This document shows, in pieces, positions 3,283 to 10,660 of a stretch of 19,222 bases of DNA. The translations under genes and the position numbers were made by a program. The DNA lies in the NCBI GenBank assembly GCA_938023895.1, contig CALJDH010000275.1:1-19222 (forward strand), given 5' to 3'. A model generated the notes under the pieces. That model did not search any database. It saw only the letters and a program-made list of their open reading frames with translations, and was not told the origin of the DNA. The stretch is from an uncultured Aliiroseovarius sp. Lineage in GTDB: Bacteria; Pseudomonadota; Alphaproteobacteria; Rhodobacterales; Rhodobacteraceae. How positions within the stretch are numbered: the stretch's first letter is position 1; each line of letters opens with the position of its first letter.

Positions 3283-3317
3283 CAAGGGGGAGCCTTCAGA
3301 AGCATTCCCCCTTGTTT
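3283..3317 (+). terminator. Terminator-like hairpin after the alkane monooxygenase gene
   Basis: A 9-bp stem, CAAGGGGGA (3283-3291) with TCCCCCTTG (3306-3314), begins 28 nt after the stop codon. The loop holds a further near-palindrome (GC-TTC...GAA-GC). It is followed by a short T-rich stretch. A terminator between this gene and the next operon is the simplest reading. Confidence 0.6.
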
Positions 3318-3450: not shown

Positions 3451-3534
3451 GTGTCGGAAAATGGATTGCAGAAAACTGCGTTCTTCATGCTGCTCGCGCT
3501 AATCCTTTATGTCTCGATTATGGGGGGCGCGTAA
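3451..3534 (+). CDS. 27-residue single-pass membrane micropeptide
   Basis: A GTG-initiated frame of 27 codons opens MSENGLQKTAFFMLLA and ends ...SIMGGA. A short polar N-terminus is followed by one hydrophobic helix (about residues 9-26). Its TAA stop shares a base with the ATG of the XpaC gene (TAATG, 3532-3536), the classic geometry of translational coupling, and it has a well-placed ribosome site. I do not recognise a named family. The architecture suggests a small membrane subunit or regulator of the XpaC/TelA complex, but that is inference from position. It could instead be only an upstream frame that meters XpaC translation. Confidence 0.65.
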   Translation: MSENGLQKTAFFMLLALILYVSIMGGA

Positions 3535-4418
3535 TGGCACAACGATATGGGGGCGAATTCAGCCCCGGCGGGCAACCCAAGACACCGCCGCCCACCCGTC
3601 GCCCGTTTGACGGGCAAGAACCGGCCCGCAGTGCCGGGCGTGTGAACTTCCTGTTTCTTGCCCCCTTGCCCCTTGCGATCCGCGCGTTTTTTCAACCGCC
3701 GACAGTAATGGCCCTGACCCTTTTGGCCTTCGGCATCCTGATCGCATCAGCATGGCTGACCCGCGATGGCGTGATGGCTCATCAGGCCTATGACGCACGC
3801 AAAATCGCCCGCCGCCCCGCGATACCGCGCAAGCTGTTTGGTGCGGCTCTGATGGGGGCCGGTCTGGCGCTGGTCGGCTTTGCGGGTGGCTCAGTCCTGA
3901 ATGCGGTGATCTTTGGCGCGCTCGGCGCTGGCCTGCATTTGGCGGCCTTTGGCCCCGATCCCTTGCGCAACAAAGGCGCCGAGGGCGTGGACGAGTTTCA
4001 AACCGACCGCGTGGCCCGCGCCGTGGGCGAAGCTGAGAAGCACCTGAACGCCATGCGTGACGCCGTGTCTCGCATCCGCGACCGCCGGGTCGAAGCGCGT
4101 CTGGATCAGTTCATCGCCACCGCCCGCGACATGTTTCGCACGGTCGAGGACGACCCCCGCGATCTGACCTCGGCCCGGAAATATCTGGGCGTCTATCTGC
4201 TGGGTGCGCGTGACGCGACAACCAAGTTTGTCGACATCCACCTGCGCGACCCGCATGGTGGCGCGTTGGCCGATTACGAAACTCTGCTGGATGATCTCGA
4301 AGCGAATTTCGCAGCGAAGACCAAACAGTTCTTGAAGGATGATCGCAGCGATCTTGATGTCGAAATCGAGGTTCTGCGCGAACGACTGGCACGCGAAGGT
4401 GTGCGTACCGAAGATTAA
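3534..4418 (+). CDS. XpaC-family (5-bromo-4-chloroindolyl phosphate hydrolysis) membrane protein
   Basis: The protein has 294 residues. Its N-terminus is Pro/Gly-rich and disordered (1-35). About four hydrophobic segments follow (36-52, 57-75, 101-118, 120-139), then a charged, helical cytoplasmic domain (about 150-292). That domain carries the XpaC-type stretch DDPRDLTSARKYLGVYLLGA (206-225). XpaC was named for an indolyl-phosphate hydrolysis phenotype in Bacillus; its biochemical function is not established. Its recurrent partner is TelA, which follows here 17 nt later, and that pairing strengthens the call. The ATG overlaps the stop of the upstream micropeptide, so translation is probably coupled. 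I see no phosphatase motif, so the family name should not be read as an enzyme activity. Confidence 0.82.
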   Translation: MAQRYGGEFSPGGQPKTPPPTRRPFDGQEPARSAGRVNFLFLAPLPLAIRAFFQPPTVMALTLLAFGILIASAWLTRDGVMAHQAYDARKIARRPAIPRKLFGAALMGAGLALVGFAGGSVLNAVIFGALGAGLHLAAFGPDPLRNKGAEGVDEFQTDRVARAVGEAEKHLNAMRDAVSRIRDRRVEARLDQFIATARDMFRTVEDDPRDLTSARKYLGVYLLGARDATTKFVDIHLRDPHGGALADYETLLDDLEANFAAKTKQFLKDDRSDLDVEIEVLRERLAREGVRTED

Positions 4419-4435
4419 GTGACGAGGATAATGTG

Positions 4436-5629
4436 ATGACCCAGACCACCCGCGAACAGGCGCAAGCCGCGCTGAAAGAAATTGAAGAAGCCACCGCCGT
4501 GATCCTGCCCGAGCCGTCGACCGCTCTGGTCCCTCTGGCCGAGGCCGACAAGCCCACCAGCGCCGAAATCCAGAAGCGCATGGACGAGATCGACATGACC
4601 AACACCCAGTCGATCATCGAATTCGGCTCGGCCGCGCAGTCGGAGTTGCAGGTGATCAGCCAAGACATGCTGCAAGGCGTGCGCAACAAGGATGTTGGCC
4701 CTGCGGGCGATAGCCTGCGCAACATCGTGACCACGATCCGTGGCTTCTCGATCAGCGAACTCGACATGCGTCGCAATCGTAGCTGGTGGGAAAAACTGCT
4801 GGGCCGCATGGCCCCTGCCGCCAAATTCATGGCGCGCTACGAGGATGTGCAAGGCCAGATCGACAAGATCACCGACAACCTTCTGAACCACGAACATGTG
4901 CTGCTGAAAGACATCAAGTCGCTCGACAAGCTCTATGAGAAGACGCTCGATTTCTATGACGAGCTGGCGCTGTATATCGCAGCAGGCGAGGCGAAACTGG
5001 GCGAATTGGATGACACCGTGATCCCTGCCAAAGTGGCCGAAGTTGACGCCGCCCCTGAAGAGCAAGGTGTGATCAAGGCGCAAGAGCTTCGTGACCTGCG
5101 CGCCGCGCGGGATGATCTGGAACGCCGCGTGCATGACCTGAAACTGACCCGTCAGGTGACGATGCAGTCGCTTCCCTCGATCCGTCTTGTTCAGGAAAAC
5201 GATAAATCGCTGGTGACCAAGATCAACTCGACCTTGGTGAACACCGTGCCGCTGTGGGAAACCCAGCTGGCGCAGGCCGTGACCATCCAGCGTTCAGCCG
5301 AAGCCGCTGCCGCCGTGAAGGACGCGACCGACCTGACCAACGAACTGCTGACCGCCAACGCCGAAAACCTGCAAGAGGCCAACCGCATGGTCCGTCAGGA
5401 AATGGAGCGCGGCGTCTTCGACATCGAAGCGGTGAAATCTGCTAACGCCACCCTGATCGCGACGATCGAAGAAAGCCTTGCCATTGCCGACGAAGGTAAA
5501 GCCAAACGCGCCGCTGCCGAAGAAGAATTGGTGAAAATGGAAGCCGAGCTGAAAGACACCTTGGCGTCCGCCAAGGCACGCGGCACCGCGTCGGGGCACA
5601 ATCTGGCCGAAAGCGTGTCGGACAGCTAA
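4436..5629 (+). CDS. TelA / toxic anion resistance family protein
   Basis: This 397-residue, highly charged, almost wholly alpha-helical cytoplasmic protein belongs to the TelA family (PF05816). Members are associated with tellurite and other stress tolerance, but their mechanism is unknown. Diagnostic features are the N-terminal segment around residues 35-60 (SAEIQKRMDEIDMTNTQSII), a helical core with RSWWEKLLGRM (about 112-122), and long coiled-coil-prone helices to the C-terminus. There is no signal peptide or membrane helix. I place the start at ATG 4436, seven nt after GAGGA; a GTG immediately before it (4433) is also in frame but closer to that site. It follows XpaC, its usual partner. 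Nothing in the sequence indicates which anion or stress, if any, is the natural trigger. Confidence 0.87.
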   Translation: MTQTTREQAQAALKEIEEATAVILPEPSTALVPLAEADKPTSAEIQKRMDEIDMTNTQSIIEFGSAAQSELQVISQDMLQGVRNKDVGPAGDSLRNIVTTIRGFSISELDMRRNRSWWEKLLGRMAPAAKFMARYEDVQGQIDKITDNLLNHEHVLLKDIKSLDKLYEKTLDFYDELALYIAAGEAKLGELDDTVIPAKVAEVDAAPEEQGVIKAQELRDLRAARDDLERRVHDLKLTRQVTMQSLPSIRLVQENDKSLVTKINSTLVNTVPLWETQLAQAVTIQRSAEAAAAVKDATDLTNELLTANAENLQEANRMVRQEMERGVFDIEAVKSANATLIATIEESLAIADEGKAKRAAAEEELVKMEAELKDTLASAKARGTASGHNLAESVSDS

Positions 5630-5657
5630 GAAGGGCGAAAACCCGAAAGGCATTCAG

Positions 5658-6623
5658 GTGAGCAGAACTGCGTTTCACAAGATAGCAAGGGCCGTCATCG
5701 TGATGACGGCTCTGACTGCTGTGATGGGCTGTACCTTGCAGCAGACGGCCACCGCGCCGCCCAAGCCTGTCGAAACCTTGCCGCAACTGATCGTCAGCCC
5801 CGCGAAGGACAGCAGTGCATATCTGCGCAACTACTATTCCAAAATTCAGGCCAGCCGTCTGGTACACGACCAATTGCGCCGTGACGGGGGCGGCCCGGAC
5901 ACGCCCTTCACCGACGCGATGTTGGCGCGAAACTTCGAGCGTATCGCCCTCAACAGCGAATACACGAAAGTGGGTGATCGTCGAATCTCAGAGGAACACG
6001 AGGTCAATCTGACGCGCTGGACCAAGCCCGTGCGTTTCGGGCTGAACTTCGGGGACGCAGTGCCCGAGGATCAGCGCGCGGTCGACCGGCAGGTCTTTGC
6101 GCCCTATATCGCACGACTGGCCCGCTTGACCGGCCATCCGATCAGCGCCGCGCCGGACAACCTGCCTCTGGGAGTTAATTTCACCGTTTTCATCCTGAAT
6201 GAAGACGAACGCCGCGCCTTCGCCCCTTCCCTACGTCGGGCCATGCCAGGGATCAGTGCCGCCGACCAGTCCCAGATCGTCAATCTGAACCGTGACACCC
6301 ATTGCGCAATCTTCGTTTCCGACAGTGACGACAACAACAGGATCGAGCGTGCCGTCGCCGTAATTCGCGCCGAGCTGCCCGACCTGATGCGTGCGGCCTG
6401 CATCCACGAGGAATTGGCGCAAGGCCTTGGCCTACCCAATGACAGCCCCGAGGCCCGCCCCTCGATCTTCAACGATTCCGACGAGTTCGGGCTACTAACC
6501 TCGCATGACGAACTGCTGTTGCAGATGCTCTATGACAAGCGTCTGCAGCCCGGCATGACCGCCGACGAGGCACGCCCGATCTTTACCAAAAATGCAGCCG
6601 AACTTATGGGCGGCTCTGCGTGA
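5658..6623 (+). CDS. DUF2927-family lipoprotein, metallopeptidase-like
   Basis: This 321-residue predicted lipoprotein has an N-terminal hydrophobic segment ending in the lipobox AVMGC (Cys25 as lipidation site), so it is probably anchored in the periplasm. The C-terminal half matches DUF2927: IHEELAQGLGLPNDS (249-263), PSIFND (268-273), and LLTSHDELLLQMLYDKRL (279-296). HEELAQGLGL resembles the HExxHxxG zinc-protease helix with the second histidine replaced by glutamine, so catalysis is doubtful or unusual. The GTG start at 5658 follows an AAAGG ribosome site by seven nt. It sits 28 nt after telA and 28 nt before the SPFH gene, suggesting an envelope-facing component of the same system. No function is established for the family. 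Confidence 0.77.
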   Translation: MSRTAFHKIARAVIVMTALTAVMGCTLQQTATAPPKPVETLPQLIVSPAKDSSAYLRNYYSKIQASRLVHDQLRRDGGGPDTPFTDAMLARNFERIALNSEYTKVGDRRISEEHEVNLTRWTKPVRFGLNFGDAVPEDQRAVDRQVFAPYIARLARLTGHPISAAPDNLPLGVNFTVFILNEDERRAFAPSLRRAMPGISAADQSQIVNLNRDTHCAIFVSDSDDNNRIERAVAVIRAELPDLMRAACIHEELAQGLGLPNDSPEARPSIFNDSDEFGLLTSHDELLLQMLYDKRLQPGMTADEARPIFTKNAAELMGGSA

Positions 6624-6637
6624 CCCCATTGCCCCCC

Positions 6638-6643
6638 AGGAGG
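6638..6643 (+). promoter_or_regulatory. Strong Shine-Dalgarno fixing the SPFH gene start
   Basis: A perfect AGGAGG lies eight nt before the ATG at 6652. It decides against an in-frame ATG at 6592 that would overlap the preceding gene. It is the strongest ribosome site seen in this operon, suggesting that the SPFH protein is made in higher amount than its neighbours. Confidence 0.85.
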
Positions 6644-6651
6644 ATTTAACC

Positions 6652-7767
6652 ATGGGTATTCTTGATTTTCTGACCGGAGAATTCATCGACGTCATTCATT
6701 GGGTGGATGACACACGCGACACGATGGTCTGGCGTTTCGAACGCGAAGATCACGAGATCAAGTACGGCGCCAAGCTGACCGTACGCGAAGGTCAGGCCGC
6801 CGTGTTCGTGCATGAAGGCCAGCTGGCGGATGTGTTTACGCCCGGCCTTTACATGCTCGAAACCAACAACATGCCGATCCTGACGACCATCAATCACTGG
6901 GATCACGGCTTCAAATCGCCCTTCAAGTCCGAGATCTACTACGTCAACACGACCCGCTTCAACGATCTGAAATGGGGCACTAAAAACCCGATCATGCTGC
7001 GCGATCCCGAATTCGGCCCGACCCGCATCCGCGCCTACGGCACCTATTCGGTCCGCGTCACGGATCCGGCGAAATTCTTGGTCGAAATCGTCGGCACTGA
7101 TGGCGAATTCACCATGGACGAGATCAGCTTTCAGATCCGCAACATCATCGTGCAAGCCTTCAGCCGTGTGATCGCGGGCGCGGGCATTCCTGTTCTGGAC
7201 ATGGCCGCCAACACCGCCGATCTGGGCAAGATCGTCGCCACCGAGATCTCGGGCATCGTGGCCGAATACGGGCTGTCGATCCCTGAATTCTATATCGAAA
7301 ACATCTCGTTGCCCCCGGCCGTGGAAGAGGTGTTGGACAAACGCACCTCGATGGGGATTGCGGGCAATCTGGACAACTACATGAAGTTCAACGCAGCCGA
7401 GGCGATGGGGTCCGAGAACTCGGCCATGGCATCATCGATGGGTGCTGGTATGGGGGCCGCGATGGGCATGGGCATGGCAGGCCAGATGCAATCCGGCCCG
7501 TGGGGCGCGGCACCTGCCGCTCCGACTGCGCACGCACAAACGCCGCCGCCCCCGCCGCCAGTGGAGCATGTCTGGCATGTGGCCGAGAACGGCGAAATCA
7601 AAGGCCCATTTTCCAGGGCCGCGATGGGGCGCATGGCGACGGCAGGCAGCCTGACTCGCGACAGCCATGTCTGGACCCCCGGCCAAGACGGCTGGATGCG
7701 CGCCGAAGATGTGGCCGAGCTGGCCCAGCTTTTCACCATCTTGCCGCCGCCTCCGCCGGGTGCCTGA
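6652..7767 (+). CDS. SPFH-domain protein with C-terminal GYF_2 domain (YdjI-like)
   Basis: The 371-residue protein has an N-terminal SPFH/stomatin-like region (about 35-235) of the YdjI ('virion core protein') type. This includes REGQAAVFVHEGQLADVF (45-62), the GTYSVRVTDPAKF segment (130-142), and IPEFYIENISLPPAVEEVLD (210-229). A flexible Gly/Met/Ala-rich linker (about 251-281) and a run of six prolines (298-303) follow. Residues about 305-361 form a GYF_2 domain (WHVAENGEIKGPFSRAAM, with a later DGWMR). A second run of five prolines lies at 365-369, near the end. SPFH proteins form membrane-associated oligomers. In Bacillus, YdjI works with YdjG and YdjH around PspA. Here a YdjG-like gene lies one gene downstream. 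No classic signal peptide is seen, so membrane association is probably peripheral or through partners. Confidence 0.86.
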   Translation: MGILDFLTGEFIDVIHWVDDTRDTMVWRFEREDHEIKYGAKLTVREGQAAVFVHEGQLADVFTPGLYMLETNNMPILTTINHWDHGFKSPFKSEIYYVNTTRFNDLKWGTKNPIMLRDPEFGPTRIRAYGTYSVRVTDPAKFLVEIVGTDGEFTMDEISFQIRNIIVQAFSRVIAGAGIPVLDMAANTADLGKIVATEISGIVAEYGLSIPEFYIENISLPPAVEEVLDKRTSMGIAGNLDNYMKFNAAEAMGSENSAMASSMGAGMGAAMGMGMAGQMQSGPWGAAPAAPTAHAQTPPPPPPVEHVWHVAENGEIKGPFSRAAMGRMATAGSLTRDSHVWTPGQDGWMRAEDVAELAQLFTILPPPPPGA

Positions 7768-7770
7768 CCT

Positions 7771-8298
7771 GTGAACCGTCGCACGACTATTAAATGGCTG
7801 CATTGGCTGGCCTTCGGGTTGATCCTGTATTTCTTCCTTGTCGAACCCGAGGAAATACGGGGCAATCCGGGGCTTGGTCTGGCCACCCATTCGGGCATGG
7901 GCATCCTGCTGGCGCTGGTGGCCGCGATCTGGCTTGGCATGTACCTGTCAAAAGGGTTGGCAGGCCGGGCCGGGCCAAAGCTGCCCGGCTGGGGCAAGCA
8001 GTTCCACGCGCTGTCACACAAGGTGCTACAAATCGGCTTACCTGTGACGGTCGCCACCGGCGCCTTTGCAGGCCTTGCCGCGCCCTTTGCGATCCGGGCT
8101 TTCGGGCTTGTGCAGATCAACCCGGGCAACGCGCCCAAAGGGCTGCACAAGATCGCCGAGGAAGTTCACGAGATCGCCTTTGACGCGTTCATCATCCTAA
8201 TTCTGGCCCATGCGGCATTTCACATCTGGCGGCATTTCGGCTTGAAGGATAACGCGCTGCGCATCATGGTCCCGAAAGTGCTGCACAAATATCTCTAA
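7771..8298 (+). CDS. Cytochrome b561-family (cytochrome b/b6-like) membrane protein
   Basis: The 175-residue protein has four predicted helices (about 9-24, 38-60, 84-106 and 134-153) and the histidine layout of bacterial di-haem cytochrome b561. Candidate haem ligands are H11 (KWLHW), H40 (ATHSGMG), H133 (EVHEIAFDAF) and H147 or H151 (AHAAFHIWRHF). H79 and H83 lie just before the third helix. The family moves electrons across the inner membrane between quinol and another acceptor. The start is GTG at 7771, three nt after the SPFH stop, and its ribosome site is weak, so translation is probably coupled. A redox protein embedded between an SPFH protein and a zinc-ribbon membrane protein is unexpected. 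Its partner and substrate are unknown. Confidence 0.8.
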   Translation: MNRRTTIKWLHWLAFGLILYFFLVEPEEIRGNPGLGLATHSGMGILLALVAAIWLGMYLSKGLAGRAGPKLPGWGKQFHALSHKVLQIGLPVTVATGAFAGLAAPFAIRAFGLVQINPGNAPKGLHKIAEEVHEIAFDAFIILILAHAAFHIWRHFGLKDNALRIMVPKVLHKYL

Positions 8299-8307
8299 GG
8301 ACTCCGG

Positions 8308-9423
8308 ATGGCCTATCCGCGCGAAGACACTCAATCGCCTATCGAGGAACATCGTTTTCCCTGCGACCAATGCGGGGCGGATCTGCGATTTGATCCCGAG
8401 CACAATCAACTGACCTGTGACCATTGCGGCTTCAAGGCGCCGATCGAGGATCGCCAACCCGCCCAGCCCGTCATTCGCGAGTTGGACCTGAAGCGCGCAC
8501 TGTCCGCTGATCTTCCGGATCACGAGATGGAAGAAACCCGAGTGGTCAGCTGCCCCAACTGTGCCGCGCAATTTGAATTCGATAGCGCGACCCATGCCGC
8601 CGAATGCCCGTTCTGTGCCACGCCTGTAGTTACGGATACCGGCACGCATCGGCACATCAAACCCAAAGGTCTCGCCCCGTTCGTGATCGAAGAGCGCGAG
8701 GCCCACAAGGCCATGAGCGATTGGCTGGGCCGCCTGTGGTTTGCGCCAAACGGGTTGCAGGAATACGCCCGCAAGGGGCGCAAGATGACCGGCATTTATG
8801 TGCCCTATTGGACCTTCGATGCGGACACCAAGACGCGCTACACCGGCCAGCGCGGGACCGAGCACGAGCGCACCCGCACCGTCATGGTGAACGGCGAGCG
8901 GGAGGAGCGCACAACCAAGCACGTCCGGTGGACCTCGGTCTCGGGCCGGGTGGCGCGGTTCTTTGATGATGTGCTGGTGCTGGCCTCGAAAGGCCTGCCG
9001 AAGAAATATACCAACGCACTGGAACCGTGGGATCTGTCGCGACTGGAGCCCTATCGCCCCGAGTTTCTGGCGGGCTTTCGCGCCGAGGGATACACCGTCG
9101 AGCTGGACGAAGGCTTTGACGAGGCGCGTGACTATATGAACCGCGTCATCCTGCGCGATGTGAAGTTTGATATTGGTGGGGACCGTCAGCGCGTCAGCTC
9201 GATGGACACGGACATGTCTGACCTGACCTTCAAGCACATCCTGCTGCCGGTCTGGTTGGCCGCCTATAAGTATCGCGGCAAGACCTATCGTTTCGTGGTG
9301 AACGGGCAAAACGGGCGCGTGCAGGGGGAACGCCCCTACTCGGTCTGGAAGATCACCTTTGCGGTGATTTTGGGGCTGATCGTGGCGGGCGTGATCGGCT
9401 ATCTGTCGGCACAAAGCCAATAG
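8308..9423 (+). CDS. Double zinc-ribbon membrane protein, YdjG-like (TFIIB-type zinc finger)
   Basis: The protein has 371 residues. Two N-terminal zinc ribbons are clear: C19/C22 with C37/C40, and C82/C85 with C100/C103. A beta-rich middle region follows, containing KPKGLAPFVI (118-127) and YVPYWTFDADT (about 164-174). Near the C-terminus is one transmembrane helix (about 350-366). This layout matches the YdjG-type proteins encoded with PspA and an SPFH protein in Bacillus. The ATG follows AAGGA by six nt and lies nine nt after the cytochrome gene. The zinc ribbons may bind protein or lipid partners rather than DNA, given the membrane anchor. It pairs naturally with the upstream SPFH protein. 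Family recognition is good; function is inference. Confidence 0.8.
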   Translation: MAYPREDTQSPIEEHRFPCDQCGADLRFDPEHNQLTCDHCGFKAPIEDRQPAQPVIRELDLKRALSADLPDHEMEETRVVSCPNCAAQFEFDSATHAAECPFCATPVVTDTGTHRHIKPKGLAPFVIEEREAHKAMSDWLGRLWFAPNGLQEYARKGRKMTGIYVPYWTFDADTKTRYTGQRGTEHERTRTVMVNGEREERTTKHVRWTSVSGRVARFFDDVLVLASKGLPKKYTNALEPWDLSRLEPYRPEFLAGFRAEGYTVELDEGFDEARDYMNRVILRDVKFDIGGDRQRVSSMDTDMSDLTFKHILLPVWLAAYKYRGKTYRFVVNGQNGRVQGERPYSVWKITFAVILGLIVAGVIGYLSAQSQ

Positions 9424-9433
9424 AGGTTAACCG

Positions 9434-10114
9434 ATGACCCCCGACCAACTCGACGCGCTTCTTGGTGCCCGTCATTCCTGCCGCGCCTTCCGCCCGGATC
9501 CGATCCCCGCACCGGTGATCGAGCAGATGCTCCTCGCGGCCCAGAAGGTGCCAAGCTGGTGTAACGCCCAGCCGTGGCAGGTCGACGTGACCACCGCGGC
9601 TGAGACCGACCGGCTGCGCGACGCCTTCTATGCTCATGCGATGGAAGCTGCGCAGACGCCGGACGTCGACTGGCCCAGCGCCTACACTGGCCTGCACCAG
9701 CGTCGCCGCAAGACCTGTGGCTTGCAGCTTTACAAAAGCGTGGGTGTCACACCGGGGGATCGCGCAGCCTCGGGTCGGCAGATGCTAGAGAACTTCCGCT
9801 TCTTCGGCGCGCCGCATATCGCGCTGATCACGGCACCTGCAGAGCTTGGCCCCTATGCTTATTTGGATTGCGGGGGCTTTGTGACCGGGTTCTGTCTTGC
9901 CGCCACGACCCAAGGTGTCGCAACAATCCCACAAGCCGCCGTCGCCGCCTTCGCGCCCTTCCTGCGCGACTGGTTTAATCTTCCCGAAGATCGCGTGATC
10001 CTGTGTGGCATTGCTTTTGGATTGAGCGACGAGGAGCACCCCGCCAACAGCTTCCGCACCGAACGGGCGGATTTGGAGGAATGGGTGCATTGGCATGGAA
10101 AGGACAGAGAATGA
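9434..10114 (+). CDS. Nitroreductase-family FMN oxidoreductase
   Basis: The 226-residue protein belongs to the FMN-dependent nitroreductase family. The N-terminal FMN-binding motif [12 protein letters not shown] (13-24) and the [13 protein letters not shown] segment (about 40-52) are characteristic. The FGAPHIALI strand and a glycine-rich [20 protein letters not shown] helix region lie further on. It probably reduces nitro-, quinone- or flavin-type substrates with NAD(P)H; the natural substrate cannot be inferred. It starts ten nt after the zinc-ribbon gene. Its TGA overlaps the ATG of dtd (ATGA at 10111-10114), so both are read from one transcript. It may be only a passenger of the membrane module. 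Confidence 0.86.
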
Positions 10115-10548
10115 GAGCTTTGATCCAACGCGTCAGCGAAGCTGCCGTCCGCGTTGACAGTGAAATCGTCGGCGAAATCGGCCCCGGCCTTCTGGTTCTG
10201 GTCTGCGCGATGGAGGGTGACACCGAGGCGAATGCCAACACGCTGGCGGCCAAGATTTCGAAGCTGCGGATCTTCAAAGATGACGCGGACAAGATGAACC
10301 GGTCGGTGGTGGACACAGGTGGCGCGGCACTGGTGGTCAGCCAGTTCACGCTGGCCGCCGACACATCGCGCGGGAACCGTCCGGGATTTTCAACGGCGGC
10401 GCGTCCGGACGAAGGTGAGCGGCTGTATGAATACTTCGCAGACCAATTGCGCGGGCATGGAATCGAGGTCGCGCAGGGACTCTTTGGTGCGGACATGAAG
10501 GTCGCTCTGGTGAATGACGGACCGGTCACGATCTGGATGGAGTTCTAG
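10111..10548 (+). CDS. dtd: D-aminoacyl-tRNA deacylase
   Basis: The protein has 145 residues, the usual length for DTD, which cleaves D-amino acids (and glycine mischarged on tRNA-Ala) from tRNAs in the cytoplasm. The opening [16 protein letters not shown], the catalytic SQFTLAAD motif, and the C-terminal [11 protein letters not shown] with its Gly-Pro pair are diagnostic. The ATG at 10111 overlaps the nitroreductase stop by four nt and follows AAAGGA. Longer in-frame starts inside the nitroreductase gene lack any DTD homology. It is the last gene of the plus-strand operon; a hairpin-rich spacer and a terminator follow. Confidence 0.96.
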
Positions 10549-10636: not shown

Positions 10637-10660
10637 GCGGGTTTAGTAGCCCGCTTTTTT
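10637..10660. terminator. Bidirectional intrinsic terminator between dtd and ghrA
   Basis: The stem GCGGG (10637-10641) with CCCGC (10650-10654) is followed on the plus strand by six T residues (10655-10660). On the minus strand it is followed by ATTTTC. It therefore can stop both converging operons. The ghrA stop codon (10643-10645) lies inside the loop, so the terminator is built partly from coding sequence. Confidence 0.8.

Follow-up and report, generated by a model that had tools for sequence, protein, structure and literature searches.

Does the run of genes at positions 3451-10548 of contig CALJDH010000275.1, from an uncultured Aliiroseovarius sp., form a single functional module, and if so, which of its genes belong to it? 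The window (the whole 19,222-nucleotide (nt) stretch of DNA analysed) is one contig of a source genome that is 56% complete, and its closest named TelA proteins are those of Aliiroseovarius. The original prediction joined XpaC and TelA to a DUF2927 lipoprotein, an SPFH–GYF_2 protein, a cytochrome b561 and a double zinc-ribbon membrane protein (hereafter ZnR), and proposed an envelope-stress system that lacks PspA. The observation is real, but the boundaries of the module need to be redrawn. At the level of gene content and order, XpaC, TelA, SPFH–GYF_2 and ZnR are a conserved set, usually led by a microprotein, joined by DUF2927 within the family Rhodobacteraceae, and with PspA not alongside. 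The genes concerned are the following (aa, amino acids; TM, transmembrane segment):

3451-3534, + strand: 27-aa single-TM microprotein, the operon leader, whose stop codon shares 1 nt with the start of XpaC
3534-4418, + strand: XpaC (PF10112; 101 bits, E = 8.9e-29), hydrophobic segments at 52-70, 101-119 and 121-139
4433-5629, + strand: TelA (PF05816; 357 bits, E = 1.5e-106), no TM
5658-6623, + strand: DUF2927 (PF11150) lipoprotein (206 bits, E = 6.9e-61)
6652-7767, + strand: SPFH protein (Band_7_1, PF13421; 334 bits, E = 3.8e-100) with a C-terminal GYF_2 domain (70 bits, E = 1e-19) and a polyproline tail
8308-9423, + strand: ZnR, with two four-cysteine zinc ribbons (CxxC at 19, 37, 82 and 100), a conserved middle domain and one C-terminal TM (349-367)

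All the genes named in the original prediction lie where it had placed them, on one strand and with the claimed domains, as judged from Pfam matches and, for ZnR, which falls below every Pfam cut-off, from the four CxxC motifs and the C-terminal TM that bear out a double zinc-ribbon membrane protein.

For the family survey, 61 genomes were searched, and the 53 TelA loci other than that of the window were compared using phmmer with the window proteins as queries; some of these loci end early (L037 and L061 are shorter than 5 kb). TelA is present in 54 of the 61 genomes, with a single match in each. Around it, the 53 loci contain genes for XpaC (52), SPFH (51), DUF2927 (50) and ZnR (48); less constant are D-aminoacyl-tRNA deacylase (Dtd; 34, 2 of them on the opposite strand), nitroreductase (9) and cytochrome b561 (5). 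Within the genus, ZnR is found in all 21 genomes. Given these high family and genus counts, as against the few occurrences of cytochrome b561 and nitroreductase, the core reads XpaC–TelA–(DUF2927)–SPFH–ZnR. The median gaps are 23.5 nt for XpaC–TelA (n = 50, with one outlier of 854 nt), 6.5 nt for TelA–DUF2927 (n = 50), 26 nt for DUF2927–SPFH (n = 48) and 47.5 nt for SPFH–ZnR (n = 42), and outliers above 400 nt occur among these loci. Because the same set recurs in the 53 family loci with short median gaps, the grouping is not due to chance, and XpaC–TelA, SPFH and ZnR indeed constitute one conserved neighborhood, as originally proposed.

Beyond the family, an even sample of the class comprises 142 genomes, 18 of which pass the Band_7_1 cut-off; of these, 11 score near 24-31 bits, and only the 7 with scores above 200 bits were counted. 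The strong Band_7_1 gene adjoins TelA in 6 of these 7 genomes, the 6 including the window's own genome and one family member. The four out-of-family loci, one genome per alphaproteobacterial family, all show XpaC–TelA–SPFH–ZnR without DUF2927 or cytochrome b561, so that the assignment of DUF2927 to the module stands within the family and fails for the wider core. A contig scan with the SPFH alignment provided a further set of loci, the best 80 of at least 581 confirmed matches, with a bias to the SPFH subtype of the query. TelA is found in 47 of these 80 loci, XpaC in 45, ZnR in 63 and DUF2927 in 6; all four core genes are present in 42 loci, chiefly of Gammaproteobacteria and Campylobacterota, 37 of which have them in the exact core order without other labelled genes. 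Four of the 42 (L166, L170, L171 and L175) presumably belong to the window's family, going by the genus name, and the remaining 38 lie outside it. By their titles, most TelA-bearing scan loci come from Gammaproteobacteria, Campylobacterota or Alphaproteobacteria, the exceptions being L111 (“bacterium”) and L122 (“Pseudomonadota”). SPFH genes with or without ZnR, for which TelA was not detected, occur in loci from Desulfobacterota, Planctomycetota and Bacteroidetes, and also in some from Gammaproteobacteria and Alphaproteobacteria. The arrangement is visible even in ordinary annotation, e.g., on a Paracoccus plasmid, where the gene order is toxic anion resistance protein, DUF2927, SPFH, zinc ribbon.

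The absence of PspA from the operon is confirmed by a profile search that yields 0 hits in 146 loci (L031-L176), the profile having been built from 11 of 12 fetched copies (1 was dropped, lacking matches), with no positive control outside the build set. The Pfam model of PspA (PF04012), which matches 9 of 14 control genomes, does not find it in the incomplete genome of the window either. Within the genus, PspA is present in 2 of 21 genomes, never near the operon, and is missing from 17 of the 19 genomes that are at least 90% complete, all 17 of which possess ZnR. In the family, PspA exceeds the cut-off in 11 of 61 genomes, located either on a different contig from TelA or over 1 Mb from it, and one of the 11 has no TelA; it also exceeds the cut-off in 15 of the 33 genomes of scan loci without linked TelA. 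Given this inconstant occurrence in the genus, the family and the scan-locus genomes, PspA is not a constant partner of the SPFH–ZnR pair. The original prediction considered a pspA gene elsewhere that partners this pair; in such a rival reading, XpaC–TelA would be a neighbor that has a separate job. Such a gene is available in the 2 genus genomes, in the 11 family genomes and in 15 of the 47 genomes of TelA-linked scan loci; however, the 17 near-complete genus genomes with ZnR and without PspA, together with the 146 loci that lack an adjacent PspA, render this explanation quite improbable.

Hydropathy analysis reveals neither a TM nor any other hydrophobic segment in the SPFH protein, which accordingly lacks the N-terminal anchor of flotillins of the FloA/FloT type. 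It contains no CxxC motif either, so that the C-terminal zinc ribbon of the pspA-ydjGHI type is missing, and GYF_2 is present instead. GYF_2 domains bind proline-rich peptides, and after GYF_2 the alignment shows a conserved polyproline tail (PPPLP-like), for which self- or cross-binding is possible. In ZnR, the eight cysteines are invariant in 15 aligned homologs, and the protein has the two zinc ribbons and TM that characterize YdjG. The middle domain of YdjG is of the NTF2/YpeB-like type. The only one of the 14 control genomes with a match to PF13421 at E <= 1e-20 is that of Bacillus subtilis, and the matching protein is probably YdjI.

The pspA-ydjGHI operon of B. subtilis shares with the window operon an anchor-free SPFH protein, a partner protein that carries a pair of zinc ribbons plus a TM, and a compact layout (PMC8581546, PMC11237479). 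The window operon differs in that PspA is absent, in that the SPFH protein ends in GYF_2 and polyproline rather than a zinc ribbon, in the lack of a match to the YdjH-type TPM domain (none at E <= 0.1 among the ten proteins spanning the run), and in the addition of XpaC, TelA and the TM microprotein. In B. subtilis, YdjI requires YdjG/YdjH for membrane localization and recruits PspA to the membrane (PMC8581546). The zinc ribbons of YdjG and the band-7 partners of PspA are described in PMC11237479 (mSystems 2024), and the PspA–band-7 neighborhoods presented there have in common with the window operon band-7 proteins with membrane-stress partners, zinc ribbons included; the main text of that paper nowhere contains the terms “TelA”, “XpaC”, “tellurite” or “GYF”.

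Several observations on ZnR itself can be added. Databases name its family “primosomal protein N' / superfamily II helicase” or “RPC12/RpoP”, names that are backed only by weak zinc-ribbon matches; the Pfam search finds no helicase domain in ZnR. In seven TelA-less loci, mostly from Desulfobacterota by title (L099, L107, L109, L123, L137, L140 and L143), SPFH is followed by a different cysteine-rich protein of 230-250 aa that replaces ZnR.

Downstream of the run, the window contains frames on the opposite strand that we tentatively take to be rodA, pbp2, mreC and mreB. A role of the SPFH–ZnR pair as a scaffold that positions the elongation machinery for peptidoglycan synthesis, with TelA and XpaC as structural components, would fit the mislocalized cell-wall synthesis in the B. 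subtilis YdjG/H knock-out (PMC8581546), but RodA, Pbp2, MreC and MreB queries match none of the 53 family loci, and this role appears unlikely. Because those loci extend no more than about 9 kb beyond TelA, RodA and Pbp2 are better tested in this way than MreB and MreC.

The XpaC–TelA pair is represented in the window by adjacent genes matching PF10112 and PF05816. The predicted model of TelA (pLDDT 78) consists of helices 127-206, 209-325 and 331-388, which form a long helical hairpin. In B. subtilis, the xpaC-yaaN operon has the same order, XpaC followed by TelA (YaaN), and is listed as sigma-W-dependent, as is pspA-ydjGHI (PMC3498285). The original prediction, that XpaC/TelA and SPFH/zinc-ribbon are known as separate units, thus holds for this bacterium; in the window operon, the two are joined.

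Databases label TelA “toxic anion resistance”, which would fit an operon for tellurite or toxic-anion resistance in which TelA and XpaC guard against oxyanions and the remaining genes assist. The XpaC and TelA of Listeria are called similar to tellurite-resistance proteins, their function in this organism being described as not well established (PMC12791056). Against this reading, a study cited in that paper reportedly assigns TelA a role in resistance to nisin and cell-wall antibiotics, and the core holds no reductase or transporter; we consider tellurite resistance a distinctly unlikely function. Proteins with SPFH and zinc-ribbon domains and those of the TelA/Ter type are also discussed in conflict systems, which brings phage defence into consideration. 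Yet, when five core proteins are compared with PADLOC, ZnR alone has a match, to TniQ and of marginal strength (E = 0.0038), and the single-copy presence of TelA in most family genomes is unlike a typical defence island, so that a defence function is very improbable indeed.

A conserved leader microprotein, overlooked by the original prediction, is new here: position 3451, from which that prediction started the run, is the first base of a conserved 27-codon frame that it left unnamed. With a lenient search, for which no shuffle control is available, all 50 family loci searched show a short hydrophobic frame upstream of XpaC; relative to the first base of XpaC, 48 of these frames end at -5 to +4 nt, and the other 2 stop 25 or 95 nt before it. 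A strict motif (GLQKLAF-like, ending at -12 to +8 nt) is present in 28 of 51 family upstream regions, the window included; Markov shuffles contain it 0.025 times on average, and among 197 regions upstream of other operon genes it occurs in 1. Outside the family, the form KKxxGFxLLL occurs in 19 of 35 regions (shuffle mean 0.05; 0 of 105 for other genes), and similar leader peptides are seen in Gammaproteobacteria and Campylobacterota. Both motifs were written after the peptides had been seen, and the identical motifs were run on the shuffles and other genes. Peptide length is 25-30 aa for the family form and 27-49 aa for the form outside it. For the first, second and third codon positions, the mismatch rates are 0.44, 0.28 and 0.61 in the family and 0.54, 0.28 and 0.67 outside it, the pattern of a small TM peptide under protein-coding selection; the two forms may share ancestry.

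The DUF2927 protein is also predicted to have a recognizable fold. The predicted model (pLDDT 90.3) produces structural matches to the catalytic domain of metzincins, and the protein contains the motif EExxQxxGxxN where metzincins have HExxHxxGxxH, with the zinc-binding histidines replaced; the motifs were aligned by hand on L-G-L, not taken from a structural alignment. Residue C25 and the motif residues are conserved in the alignment: among 41 sequences, E251, E252 and G258 are invariant, and Q255 and N261 are found in at least 90%. We therefore describe DUF2927, as a prediction from the model, as a metzincin fold with an altered metal site. Compared with the metzincin metalloproteases (matrix metalloproteases, karilysin), it shares the predicted fold and differs in the metal motif, and its profile gives no match to a solved metzincin among PDB sequences. 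In the open-licence literature, we found no paper on DUF2927, nor any that ties it to metzincins. Two alphaproteobacterial genomes carry a tandem pair of DUF2927 genes between TelA and SPFH (L114:6238-7991 and L118:6135-7981), and in L080 a second, diverged DUF2927-like lipoprotein, in which V replaces the H before EE, lies between TelA and DUF2927.

The best explanation of the conserved set, to which we assign a probability of roughly 0.5, is a PspA-independent membrane-surveillance module that would be a relative of the phage-shock response in its pspA-ydjGHI branch, with TelA as the likely effector. ZnR, tail-anchored with cytosolic zinc ribbons, would form the inner-membrane part together with XpaC and the microprotein. 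The anchor-free SPFH protein would be recruited to the membrane, as YdjI is by YdjG/YdjH, and would build a scaffold whose GYF_2 domains may bind proline-rich tails. TelA, a soluble protein with a long helical hairpin, might then be recruited and stabilize or remodel the damaged membrane in the role that PspA has in Bacillus, and DUF2927 could contribute sensing or binding on the envelope side in the family; cytochrome b561, nitroreductase and Dtd would be dispensable. We advance more tentatively, and with appreciable doubt, the idea of a second membrane-repair lineage defined by TelA as an SPFH-recruited effector, a TM microprotein subunit of about 25-50 residues and, in Rhodobacteraceae-like bacteria, a DUF2927 envelope sensor. 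TelA and XpaC are widespread and are named for phenotypes that fail to explain them; a conserved PspA-less operon with SPFH and zinc-ribbon genes gives them a testable biochemical setting. The module may account for the handling of membrane damage in many bacteria that lack PspA, and two concrete handles on it are the microprotein and the metzincin fold predicted for DUF2927. In the open-licence literature, where longer result lists were judged by title or the start of the abstract, no paper on an XpaC–TelA–SPFH–ZnR operon was found.

A number of observations weigh against the membrane-surveillance module. Its functional role is inferred from relatives, and TelA and XpaC were rejected as sequence homologs of PspA (hhalign probabilities of 3.0% and 0.2%, respectively). 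The TelA model gives generic long-helix matches, none significant; PspA is not among the matches listed, which says nothing against an ESCRT-III-like fold. PspA is encoded elsewhere in the 15 TelA-linked scan genomes mentioned above. Family loci L071 and L076 consist of XpaC–TelA alone, without SPFH, and the SPFH–ZnR pair appears without TelA in 16 of the 80 scan loci, in some cases through contig ends. In L045, L050 and L051, the SPFH–ZnR gap contains a convincing-looking open reading frame (ORF) on the opposite strand, so that ZnR is not necessarily co-transcribed. Of the four alphaproteobacterial outgroups, three (L084-L086) yielded no leader microprotein. Finally, 299 genomes sampled evenly across the phylum contain 35 strong Band_7_1 genes; all 14 within the family are near TelA on the same contig, and none of the 21 outside it is, with TelA present elsewhere in 5 of these genomes, although 8 of the 21 come from one genus and fragmented assemblies may conceal some linkage. 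Given the linked scan loci on the one hand and 0 of 21 on the other, the TelA–SPFH linkage is wide but patchy.

The remaining features of the region are as follows:

3305-3313, + strand: promoter-like element, a weak copy of TTCCCCCT..., which some family members have in common ahead of the operon
7771-8298, + strand: cytochrome b561 (PF01292; 47 bits, E = 2.4e-12), an optional insertion
9434-10114, + strand: nitroreductase-family protein (Pfam E = 2.4e-26), a co-directional passenger
10111-10548, + strand: Dtd (NCBIfam TIGR00256), a housekeeping gene and frequent neighbor
10637-10654, + strand: terminator-like hairpin with a T-run, 3' of Dtd

With these, the co-directional run at 3451-10548 comprises nine genes: microprotein, XpaC, TelA, DUF2927, SPFH–GYF_2, cytochrome b561, ZnR, nitroreductase and Dtd. 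The 1-nt overlap of the microprotein and XpaC is followed by spacers of 14, 28, 28, 3, 9 and 10 nt and by a 4-nt overlap of nitroreductase and Dtd, which agrees with the originally reported spacings of 3-28 nt plus overlaps for the starts chosen here; those of SPFH (6652) and Dtd (10111) are inner choices, with longer frames open from 6592 and 10003, and in the scripted analyses gene starts were set mechanically. From the sequence, we infer a single transcript for the whole run. Searches that included a sigma-70 promoter scan give 1 promoter-like and 7 terminator-like matches in the region, not above the shuffles (2.4 and 7.8). By word counts, TTCCCCCT is found in 15 of 51 upstream regions compared with 0.1 in Markov shuffles, and in a subset of the family (e.g., L036, L041, L043 and L053) a fuller form, TTCCCCCTAGCAAGC-N-CCTA, precedes XpaC by about 155 nt. 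The element may act as a promoter.

Cytochrome b561, proposed originally as the redox component of the module, was rejected as a core gene: it is present in only 5 of the 21 genus genomes, always adjoining ZnR, and, as noted, in 5 of the 53 family loci. Nitroreductase and Dtd likewise vary in presence among the family loci. Other inserted genes include a putative b561-like cytochrome in the SPFH–ZnR gap of L036 and a group of 22 related ORFs in gaps, each about 300 aa long, that are often located before Dtd and were read as a putative sugar kinase. In two loci from Alphaproteobacteria (L094:4335-8370 and L095:3823-7416), TelA is followed by a gene for a protein of 523-560 aa, lipoprotein-like in L094, and then by XpaC or a gene of similar size.

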